In this document: positions 14,498 to 21,800 of the stretch, in pieces
Numbering within the stretch: position 1 is the first letter of the stretch
How the letters are laid out: the number at the start of each line of letters is the position of its first letter
Origin: Xestospongia bergquistia
Taxonomy: Eukaryota > Porifera > Demospongiae > Haplosclerida > Petrosiidae
Assembly: GCA_963965975.1 (NCBI GenBank)
Contig: OZ014422.1
Span: 186,001 to 250,000, forward strand
DNA length: 64,000 bases
Direction of reading: 5' to 3'
Made by a program: the position numbers and the translations under genes
Notes under the pieces: generated by a model
The model's database searches: none
What the model saw: only the letters and a program-made list of their open reading frames with translations
Told to the model about the DNA's origin: nothing

Positions 14498-17081
<2,584 letters not shown>

Positions 17082-17662
17082 TGCTGTATCCTACTGGAAT
17101 AAATATTTTTCTCACTCTATTTCACTCACGTGGTAACAGAGGTCTTTCCCAGGGAATTCCCTGGGTTAGCACTGAAGGTATTCATTTGTTGTCTTCACAA
17201 AGTCATGTGAAGCTAATATGATTCTTGTGTGAGTAATTTGATTGGTCAATACTTTAATTAACTTCTATGAATATCATTAAATATTGCATCAGCCAACTTG
17301 AGGCTAACAAATAGCATACTATATAAGGTCAAGTTAGTATTATTTTCACAAATTCTGTGAAAGAAAGTCTTTGAAGACTCGTTCCTCGAAAGAAAACGCT
17401 CTCTTGAGCAGTATAATGATCTTTTGTTCTTTCAAGACTCAATTCAGAAATATTAGGAGTCATCCGTTTACTATACGACTGTTTGAACATTTTAAGATTG
17501 CCTAACAGAGAACAATAAAGAACTCGCTTGTATTGTACTAAACCTTCTATTGAAGACTAACTCTACTTCGTATAATTTTGTACAGACAGAGAGATCTAAT
17601 CTACAATATATTCTATTATATAGTTGATTGTTGTATTATTGGTGATCTGATCTCGAGTTGAG
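17082..17662 (+). promoter_or_regulatory. ECD / ATF4 divergent promoter and 5' leader
   Basis: 581 bases. A TATA-like TATATAAG sits at 17320-17327 in the ATF4 direction. Just downstream are two short hairpins, TTTCACA-AATTC-TGTGAAA (17344-17362) and AGTCTT-TG-AAGACT (17366-17379), and two TTCNNNGAA palindromes (17353-17361, 17382-17390). An ATG at 17416 opens a 29-codon frame that stops at 17505. It counts as a uORF only if transcription begins upstream of it. The transcription start is inferred, not known. Confidence 0.45.
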
Positions 17663-17674
17663 ATGGACGCCTAA
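17663..17674 (+). promoter_or_regulatory. ATF4-type uORF1 (3 codons)
   Basis: ATG GAC GCC TAA. It is a three-codon upstream ORF, 61 bases before the next ATG, with no other ATG between. Vertebrate ATF4 mRNAs also begin with a three-codon uORF1 that promotes reinitiation. Confidence 0.75.
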
Positions 17675-17735
17675 GAGGAAGTGGGTTAACCTCCTCAACT
17701 AAGTACAACTAATACAATTTATATATATTTGAACC

Positions 17736-17905
17736 ATGGCTTCCATTATGAGGTAGGTCTCCTCTACATGTTGTGTTATATTAATTATTAATATAACAGG
17801 TCTCATTTATTGTCCCACGTTCGACTACACAAGTCGCATCAAAATGGCAGCATTAGCTCCTCAATCGTGTTTGACCGGCATAGCTGGTCACAGCCTCTTT
17901 TCTGA
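17736..17905 (+). promoter_or_regulatory. ATF4-type uORF2, spliced, overlapping the main start
   Basis: The ATG at 17736 is in a good context (ACCATGG). Exon part 17736-17752 splices (GT at 17753, AG at 17798-17799) to 17800, giving a 40-codon ORF that terminates with TGA at 17903-17905. It overlaps the main ORF (start 17844) by 62 bases in a different frame. If the intron is retained, uORF2 instead stops after six codons at an in-frame TAG formed by the donor. Confidence 0.75.
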
Positions 17906-18717
17906 GGATCTCTCTCCCACGTCCTTCTATGAACCATATGCACACATGGTAGGTCAGGAATCCCTTGTTATTGGGAAGGTTGATGAACTGGAACAGCTGT
18001 TACTATTAGACGCTAGTCTTCAGACAGATTTCCTTCTAAATAGTAAGATAATATTACTATGTATTACATTATATATGTGTTCCTCTAGACAAGTGGTCCT
18101 ATCCTCAATTGACTGAGGGCCCAATTCCAGATCTGAGCCTTTTCTGTGAACCTGATCAAACAAGTTTCTCAGAGAGCCCTCTCTCATCTCTTCCATCATC
18201 TCCCAACTCTGTCCAGCCTCTGTTGTCACCAGAAGAACAAGAGATCAATGAGATTGTCTCCTCTTTTCAAAATGATCCCCCTTACTTTGCTTTAAGTCCC
18301 CCTGTCTCTAGTCCATTGTATGCACAACTTGTACCATCTTATCCCTCTGACTCCTCCCCTCCTGCCTCGTCTCCTCTTTCTACCATAGCTCCTTCTCCTG
18401 TCAGTCCTGTGTCCCTCGTACAACCCAAAGATGAAACATACATACCACCTTCACCCAAGCCTGTTACAAAACGTTCTAGTAAACTGACTACTAAAGAACG
18501 TAAGGAACGTAAAAAGGACCAGAACAAAACAGCAGCTCTTCGCTATCGACAGAAAAAGAAAGACCAACTCGGCATTTTAATTGAACAAGAAAAAGCTCTT
18601 GAAACAACTAATAAAAAATTAAAGATGCAAGTAGACAGTTTATCAAAAGAAATAGAATATCTCAAGAATCTCTGGGAAGAAATACAACAAGTTAAACAAC
18701 AGAAACCAATTAAATAA
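17844..18717 (+). CDS. ATF4: ATF4-type bZIP transcription factor
   Basis: About 275 residues from two coding exons (17844-18042 and 18089-18717). The N-terminal two thirds are Ser/Pro-rich and acidic, like an activation domain. The C-terminus has a basic region KKDQNKTAALRYRQKKKDQ, very close to the remembered ATF4/ATF5 signature (QNKTAATRYRQKKR), followed by a leucine-zipper coiled coil (IEQEKALETTNKKLKMQVDS...). ATF4 is the effector of the integrated stress response, translated when eIF2 is phosphorylated. The leader here has the same two-uORF logic, which supports the identification more than the zipper alone. The start at 17844 is the first ATG in the bZIP frame. Confidence 0.9.
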
Positions 18718-18896: not shown

Positions 18897-21800
18897 TTAA
18901 AGTGCAAAAGTGGGTATAGTCAATTTACTAGCAAGTGCTTGACAATTAGGATCTTTACGATTAGTTACCAACGACTGAAACCGATCCTATAAATCACTCA
19001 GTCACATGAAGATCATGTGATCATACAAAACTTACCAACAAGTTAGTCTGAAAGGCTCCATGTCTTTGCATGAGTTGCCACAAGTTAATAATCATGGAAG
19101 CAACAGCAGGCTCAGAAAGATCAGAATGACATACTAATCTAGAAAGAGAGAGAGAGTTCAGATTATGTGAGGTTGTTGAACATAATACCTGGAATATAAT
19201 CCTAATGCTAACTTGGATTGTCTTTTAGCCTGTTCATATAATTATTAATAAATATAATAACAAGATATCTCCTTCTTACATCATCAGTTGATGTGAGAGT
19301 TTTAATATGATCAGATATTAATCCCAATAGTTTGTGTACAATGCCAATTACTTCAGATGTAAACTTCTTTTCTCCAGCATACAGACTATCATTAGAATCA
19401 ACTGTAAATTGAATTTTAAAAATAATGTAAAGGAAATTAGTCTGTGTTGTACAACATGTTATAAAGTAGTCACTGTCAGCACTCACCTTTGTCTATACTA
19501 TATAGATAATTATCCTATACAAAACAACAGGAATTACTATAAATAGGATTGTGGTTTAGTGAAGTCATTATGACATTATTGTGTTACTATATTTACAACT
19601 TGCTTGACAAATAGCAGATAACAAACAAATAGCACTCATATATACTCTGAATTTACAATCTGTATCATCCTGCCTGAAAATGAATGAACAAAGATGATGA
19701 AAGGACGAATGGATGAATAGATGGACTGATAAATGGATGGATGTACTGATAAATGGATGAATGGACTGATAAATGGATGGATGGATGTACTGATAAATGG
19801 ATGGATGTACTGATAAATGGATGGATGGATGTACTGATAAATGGATGAATGTACTGATAAATGGATGGATGTATGGATCATACCATTTGTATTCATCTAA
19901 TGAGTTTAAAACTCCTTTAATAATAAGTAAAGGTTCTCTATCAGGATTATCCTATGAAACAAATGTTGTCATGTGACTATCATGTGACTGTACTCACAGG
20001 AACAACCAGTAAAGTAGAGAACATATTACACAGAAATCCATTTACATGCTGTTCAGTACTCTGACGTTTATTATCCATATCTGTTAATTAAAAGAACACA
20101 TTATGAATTACTCAACACAATTACTCAGTGATTATTACAGGGTTTTACCCATGTCAATATCATTATACCCAAGTATTATCAATATCATTATACATTGCAT
20201 ATTACAGGGTCTTACCCATGTCAATATCATTATACATTGCATATTACAGGGTCTTACCCATGTCGATATCATTATACATTGCATATTACAGGGTCTTACC
20301 CATATACTGTGGTACATCTTTTAAACAGTTGATAGCAGCTTTAAAGAAAGCATCTCCTACAAAGAGAGTAGAACTTATAGTTAGTATGTTAATGTTAAGA
20401 CCTTGAGACAGGGCACCATTAGCAATAGCTACTCGACCAGAGAGGAGATAAAGATTAAGACGACTCAATATATTATCAATTGACGGTACTGTAATGAAAC
20501 AATATGCAACACAAGCCTAAATGGACAGACAGCTCAATAAAATGGACAGATAGATTGAACTTACTCTAACAAATGATGCTGTCTTCCTGTTATGGTTACC
20601 CTTGACAACCTCACGTGTTTTCATCGCCAACCAGTTGACATTCTATAATTATGAGAGGTGGAGTTTATAAATAAGTGGGAGGAGTCAACTTACATGAACA
20701 AGATAAATTAATACTGCATCCAAATTATTAAAAGTGGCACGAGCTTCAACAAAAAAACTTAATTGTTGTTCAAAGTCTCGTTCAAAATCAATCTGAGGAA
20801 ACAAAAATTCCATTACAAAATATAATTAGTAGGGACATTCTCATTTAATGCAAATATTTGATACAGACATTTCTGTTATCCAGTAAATGAAAATAATTAG
20901 GGACAACCACATTAATAATATAGGGACATCCTCATTAATAAACCTACTTTTCTAAGAAATGTTGTTATTAACTCTCCAATTTGTCGTCTGTCATCATTGA
21001 GACTTAAAGCACTAAATGGGTGTGGTCATGTCATAATCAAGTGGGTGTGGTTACTAACTTCAATGAATCGTGTAGAATTTTACACAAGTACATTATTCCA
21101 TTGATAATTAAAGGATCAGTTGTCCCCTCCTTCTGTTGACTAGAACAAAATAAGGGACGTGGTACGTAGGTGTGGCTTACAAAGTGAAAGCTCTGACAAT
21201 ATTAGTACTGACTTCAACTTTAACTTCTTCCTTTTGAAATAGATCAACATACGGTAAAAACTTGTCCTGAAAACAAAATAGATAACATTACAATATCATA
21301 ATGTTACCACACCCACCATAGCAAAGAGGTTGCTAAAGTCAGTAAAATAAGGTAATATTTTGTTTATAATAGAGACTAGTTCAGGATAATGTGACTCAAA
21401 GGCTCGTTCTGGTGTCATGTGTTTAATGATGTCATCCAATAATCTGTTGACTTCTTTCTTCTACAGTGAGATGTGTGACTTCTCTCTATATACATAGTTA
21501 CTTCAACTTACTGTGAAATGTTTAGCAACATATTCCATCCAAACTTGAGCACATGAGATATATTCTGATGTTTTCAATTTCATCACATCTTTCCATATCT
21601 ATAAACAAGTTAGTGTATCATTAGTTATATATTAAAATAACTCACTGTATTTAATAACTGTAGCTGTTCTTTAGCAGGAGGATCTGCTTGGACTACACAG
21701 TTACCCAATGATACATACAAATGATACTGTGAATATAAGATTAAGATAAACCAGTTTAGAAAACAAGTTTTACTTTAGGTGTGACTCCTTCTTCACATTC

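Follow-up and report, generated by a model that had tools for sequence, protein, structure and literature searches.

The leader of an ATF4-type bZIP gene in this sponge reads as a delayed-reinitiation switch, an interpretation to which we give a probability of roughly 0.6. In such a switch, ribosomes would translate a three-codon upstream open reading frame (uORF1) and then resume scanning. When ternary complex (eIF2) is plentiful they would reinitiate at a second frame, uORF2, through its strong ACCATGG start, and translation of uORF2, which runs 62 nt beyond the ATF4 start, would keep ATF4 off; when ternary complex is scarce, uORF2 would be bypassed and initiation would take place at 17844. 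In favour of the switch are the strong-context uORF pair (present in 0.05-0.36% of shuffles and in 0/48 upstream regions), the match of the protein to ATF4, the known occurrence of the arrangement elsewhere, the site scores of the leader intron, and the pathway genes. Against it are a probable additional frame of 29 codons, uORF0, ahead of uORF1 (frames of more than ~20 codons normally bar reinitiation; PMC4176352), the loss of any overlapping uORF if the leader intron stays in, the short gaps of 61 nt, the ease with which the pair arises by chance when contexts are ignored, and the threonine that eIF2alpha carries at residue 51 (Thr51). Coordinates given without a contig refer to the window, the stretch of 64,000 nucleotides that was analysed (C12:186001-250000), which belongs to a genome that was searched across 146.5 Mb in 21 contigs.

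The gene itself consists of two coding exons separated by a short intron:

17844-18042, plus strand: ATF4 coding exon 1, with ATG context aaaATGG
18043-18088, plus strand: coding intron of 46 nt, whose removal gives a 275-aa frame, an alternative acceptor giving 73 aa
18089-18717, plus strand: ATF4 coding exon 2, which carries the bZIP (residues 204-265, ~18499-18684)

The vertebrate duplicate of ATF4 is ATF5. A search of the PDB with the 275-residue protein returned 21 matches, none of them ATF5, headed by human ATF4 (1ci6_A, E=1.4e-10) and followed at much weaker values by a fungal bZIP (0.0056), a DISC1-ATF4 fusion (0.0063), C/EBP-beta (0.012), ATF2 (0.19) and JUN (0.27). Pfam recognised bZIP_1 in the same protein, and the genome contains one strong locus for an ATF4-type bZIP, the next match having an E value of 2.8e-4 and 37% identity. 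Assignment of the predicted product as an ATF4-type bZIP, closest to ATF4 rather than to C/EBP, JUN or ATF2, is thus supported. The ATF4 family is reported to have been duplicated in vertebrates (PMC4736632). Relatives of the gene were also sought by tblastn in prokaryote and viral collections (48 and 43 pattern stretches, respectively) and none were found, an absence that is uninformative. As for its surroundings, a minus-strand neighbour lies head-to-head with the gene (14498-17081, first ATG 17081), its ORFs matching SGT1/ecdysoneless (PF07093) at E values of 7e-5 and 3.6e-4, below the Pfam cut-off, and at 19690-19890 the window holds a short tandem repeat that by eye is rich in ATGGATGGATGTACTGATAA-like units.

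Upstream of the ATF4 start, the leader contains the following elements:

17416-17505, plus strand: uORF0, 29 codons, context ataATGA (A at -3), part of the leader if transcription starts at ~17348
17663-17674, plus strand: uORF1, ATG GAC GCC TAA (Met-Asp-Ala-stop), 3 codons, context gagATGG
17736-17752, plus strand: first part of uORF2, ATG at 17736, context accATGG, second in-frame ATG at 17748
17753-17799, plus strand: inferred 47-nt intron inside uORF2 (GAG/GTAGGT ... AACAG/GTC), placed by site scores and length
17800-17905, plus strand: second part of uORF2, TGA stop at 17903-17905, with a 62-nt out-of-frame overlap with the ATF4 start

The original prediction had described a three-codon uORF1 at 17663-17674, followed by 61 bases free of any ATG up to the uORF2 ATG at 17736, and we re-derived both from the sequence. 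Its uORF2, of 40 codons once spliced and overlapping the main ATG at 17844 by 62 nt in a different frame, was likewise reproduced, given removal of the 47-nt intron at 17753-17799. After splicing, the distance from the uORF2 start to the ATF4 start is 61 nt as well. At both uATGs position -3 is a purine and position +4 a G, so that initiation contexts are good at uORF1 and at uORF2, and the product of uORF1 (MDA) falls within the class of 2-3 residues. The second in-frame AUG of uORF2 has the context attATGA. Scanned against Pfam, the 40 residues encoded by uORF2 matched no family at E values up to 0.1. Further ATGs at 17205, 17218 and 17267 would be relevant only if transcription started that far upstream.

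Removal of the leader intron is likely, judging from its predicted splice sites. The donor at 17753 has the highest score (5.4) in the whole of 17348-17843, where the sole other donor scoring above 1 is at 17681 (1.5). The acceptor at 17799 scores 3.4, and the upstream acceptors at 17585 (3.7) and 17623 (3.6) have no preceding donor above 1. These scores come from a generic splice matrix, which gives 2.2 for both the donor and the acceptor of the coding intron of the ATF4 gene. For comparison, we used introns of the same genome that could be anchored either by homology at the protein level or by the reading frame; seven anchor pairs yielded five introns, one pair having no gap and one (GCN2) no solution. 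Since these five measure 46, 47, 52, 56 and 59 nt and have donor scores of 2.2-6.7, the leader intron is typical in length and donor strength. A longer intron, 17681-17799, which would delete the uORF2 start, is less likely given its donor score of 1.5 as against 5.4 at 17753.

Since the overlap is missing when the intron is retained, the overlap of uORF2 with the ATF4 start depends on splicing. In the unspliced leader, uORF2 has 6 codons, with its end at 17756, and is followed by a 7-codon uORF (17768-17791), and no uORF overlaps the main start. Intron retention might therefore allow ATF4 to be made without stress, the eIF2 switch being bypassed. Intron retention is reported as the commonest form of alternative splicing in the sponge Amphimedon queenslandica (45.0% of events and 18.0% of all transcripts; PMC4432959), and because it is common there the retained, overlap-free form deserves to be weighed as an alternative. 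The good donor and acceptor scores, however, argue for efficient splicing, successive short uORFs would still lower output, and an intron-retained mRNA may decay or remain in the nucleus, and we consider it quite improbable that the leader is gated by splicing in this way rather than by delayed reinitiation.

Where the leader begins bears on how many uORFs it contains. Two promoter elements precede the predicted start:

17283-17291, plus strand: AARE/CARE core ATTGCATCA, an exact match and a candidate ATF4-C/EBP site in the proximal promoter
17320-17328, plus strand: TATA-like box TATATAAGG, with CA at 17347-17348, 28 nt downstream

From the position of the TATA-like box and the CA dinucleotide, we predict a transcription start near 17348. 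In 264 kb, TATATAAGG has two plus-strand copies, the ATF4 copy included. Measured between their first bases, the AARE core precedes the TATA-like box by 37 bases, and its sequence is identical to the core reported for CHOP, SNAT2 and ATF3 (PMC3006201). Its presence suggests that the ATF4-type gene may be its own transcriptional target. Because an exact ATTGCATCA is present four times when both strands of 264 kb are counted, the ATF4 copy included (~0.009 per 600 bp), a match at a single gene is suggestive only, this being one site in one gene, spotted after the fact. A start near 17348 would place uORF0 inside the leader, with no donor above 1 to remove it. A leader intron that excises uORF0 was considered and is not supported; between 17348 and 17681 no donor has a score above 1, as against 2.2-6.7 for the anchored donors.

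How often a uORF pair of this kind would be expected by chance was estimated by dinucleotide shuffling. A uORF of 2-5 codons together with an overlapping out-of-frame uORF appeared in 15.1%, 18.0% and 19.7% of shuffles for assumed starts at 17348, 17510 and 17600, respectively (20,000 shuffles per assumed start, the splice being taken as given). A stricter pair, with no in-frame upstream ATG, was present in 11.0-16.8% of shuffles (five assumed starts, 5,000 each), and in 3.6-5.8% when uORF1 had to be exactly 3 codons long (5,000 each). When both uATGs also had to carry the purine (-3) and the G (+4) of a strong context, a condition introduced after the first shuffle test, the pair was seen in 0.05%, 0.17% and 0.36% of shuffles for the starts at 17348, 17510 and 17600. 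For a genomic control we turned to 264 kb containing 48 first-ATG ORFs of 150 aa or more and took the 400 nt ahead of each, unspliced and probably including some false gene starts; here 18/48 had an overlapping out-of-frame uORF, 14/48 the pair, and 0/48 the pair with both strong contexts. Random synonymous recoding of the coding sequence brought the overlap to 62 nt or more in 62% of cases, and the length of the overlap is therefore no sign of selection.

By itself, then, without its contexts, the uORF pair is weak evidence, and the upstream ATGs might only resemble the ATF4 arrangement, the true leader starting further downstream or being spliced otherwise. Such a coincidence would fit the 15-20% of shuffles and 14/48 upstream regions in which the pair occurs regardless of context, and the unremarkable overlap. 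We nevertheless regard it as highly unlikely, as the arrangement had been predicted beforehand for ATF4 genes and chance yields it with its contexts in only 0.05-0.36% of shuffles. ATGs are also somewhat fewer than in shuffles if the leader is long (4 against a mean of 7.4, P=0.074, for a start at 17348), though not if it is short (P=0.61 for a start at 17640).

Operation of the delayed-reinitiation switch would call on the eIF2 stress pathway, several genes of which we found in the genome. PERK-like kinase exons are present on C13 (best match PERK, 6.7e-26), a GCN2-like kinase exon on C10 (best match GCN2, 1.4e-28), a gene for PPP1R15, the eIF2alpha phosphatase subunit, on C15, and a DENR gene on C7, together with W2-domain genes, one of which we take to resemble 5MP/BZW. 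An exon-by-exon search of the sponge's own genome gave no match to the GCN2-type anticodon-binding family PF12745, a result that looks like a false negative since GCN2-like kinase exons are present; asparagine synthetase (PF00733) had no match in the own-genome search. Three tandem kinase genes at G000:C12:6356716-6361121 have open frames of 373-382 codons, with 32-36% identity to the kinase query taken from PERK. In the PPP1R15 gene, the 471 nt ahead of the presumed start (L050:472) contain a single ATG, and this opens an overlapping out-of-frame frame of 113 codons (L050:284-625), which is possibly a sign of another uORF-controlled member of the pathway, or else of a coding exon that is spliced differently.

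The eIF2alpha gene, found at a single locus in two genome searches (L031, G000:C11, ~6925701-6925940, minus strand), reads MLSELTRRRIRS where the human protein reads LLSELSRRRIRS. In an otherwise highly conserved stretch, the DNA (AGTGAACTTACAAGA) thus encodes Thr (ACA) at the position of the phospho-Ser51, in place of a phosphorylatable Ser51; a single base separates Ser TCA from Thr ACA, and an assembly error or polymorphism could account for the difference. In trypanosomatids the aligned residue of eIF2alpha is also reported to be a threonine, and to be phosphorylated (PMC4850487), so that function may be kept in the sponge. Retention of two kinases and the phosphatase subunit argues that Thr51 is in use.

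Thr51 also bears on whether the leader might be plainly repressive, with uORF0 and uORF2 keeping ATF4 low, uORF1 seldom reached and no eIF2-dependent switch. Such a leader would be consistent with the threonine and with a uORF0 that has A at -3, falls within the predicted leader and has no donor above 1 to excise it. The phosphorylation system is, however, unlikely to have been lost, as PERK, GCN2 and PPP1R15 are retained, the trypanosomatid phospho-site at the same place is itself a threonine, and arthropod ATF4 leaders also have extra upstream uORFs, though in poor context (PMC4176352). On balance, simple repression seems to us a decidedly unlikely account, and delayed reinitiation remains the reading we prefer.

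The layout, contexts and ATF4 identity fit, and in part support, the original proposal of an ATF4-type switch leader, in a form that is more complex than proposed, with a uORF0, a splice-dependent uORF2 and an eIF2alpha that has Thr rather than Ser. The uORF0, the second in-frame AUG of uORF2, the TATA-like box and the CHOP-type AARE had all been absent from that proposal. A more elaborate scheme can be drawn, in which the leader has two gates, the supply of eIF2 and the 47-nt splice, the stress response acts via phospho-Thr51, and the AARE closes a positive feedback loop; taken as a whole we think it unlikely. The threonine at residue 51 is the most unusual element that we met, and Thr51 and the splice-gating of uORF2 are novel leads. 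Together they offer test cases for the capacity of an eIF2alpha with threonine at residue 51 to drive the stress response of an animal, and for a possible release of ATF4 from that response when the intron is retained.

The sponge leader is a credible extension of a known animal control device and as such is less novel than first thought. Paired ATF4 uORFs have been described in vertebrates, arthropods, Aplysia and Hydra, and claimed for all animals but nematodes (Hiraishi 2014; PMC4176352), so the claim of great age is largely published and the sponge leader adds one branch; the main text of that paper has no mention of sponge, Porifera or Amphimedon. Among the titles and abstract openings returned for ATF4 uORFs in sponges, eIF2alpha T51 and Porifera eIF2 stress, a set with subscription journals mostly outside it, nothing concerned the leader or Thr51 in sponges. 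Since a uORF survey of 478 species is reported to have taken in sponges (PMC7889888), its data could include the sponge ATF4 leader without comment.

Like the mammalian ATF4 leader, that of the sponge has a short uORF1, a longer uORF2 that overlaps the ATF4 frame if spliced as predicted, and favourable contexts at both uAUGs. Human uORF1 is given as four codons including the stop and uORF2 as sixty codons, twenty-seven of them overlapping, with a favourable Kozak sequence at uAUG1 and uAUG2 (PMC12839439), and the mammalian overlap as 83 nt (PMC5666893). The lengths had been said to be the same as in vertebrates; this holds for uORF1, which matches the human one, whereas the sponge uORF2 has 40 codons and an overlap of 62 nt. 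The sponge leader differs further in its extra 29-codon uORF0 and the splice-dependence of its uORF2, and it has no counterpart of the human single-codon uORF downstream of uORF1. A penultimate GCG-Ala codon favours DENR dependence of uORFs (PMC7494916), and the sponge uORF1 ends in a related but different Ala codon, GCC.

Among invertebrates, the nematode ATF-5 gene resembles that of the sponge in having two uORFs ahead of an ATF4 homologue, but its uORF1 is reported to exceed the length that allows reinitiation, whereas the sponge uORF1 has 3 codons (PMC4176352). The leaders of arthropods, Aplysia and Hydra share with the sponge the paired uORFs and a uORF1 of 2-3 residues, and those of arthropods also the second in-frame AUG in uORF2 and the extra uORF upstream of uORF1; the extra uORF, however, has A at -3 in the sponge and a poor context in arthropods, and the second in-frame AUG is in the context attATGA in the sponge and in a strong one in insects (PMC4176352). 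In Drosophila crc/ATF4, where reporter mutants are reported to reveal a positive uORF1 and a negative overlapping uORF2 (PMC4433282), the pair has the organisation predicted for the sponge, with an overlap of 125 nt in the fly as against 62 nt in the sponge.
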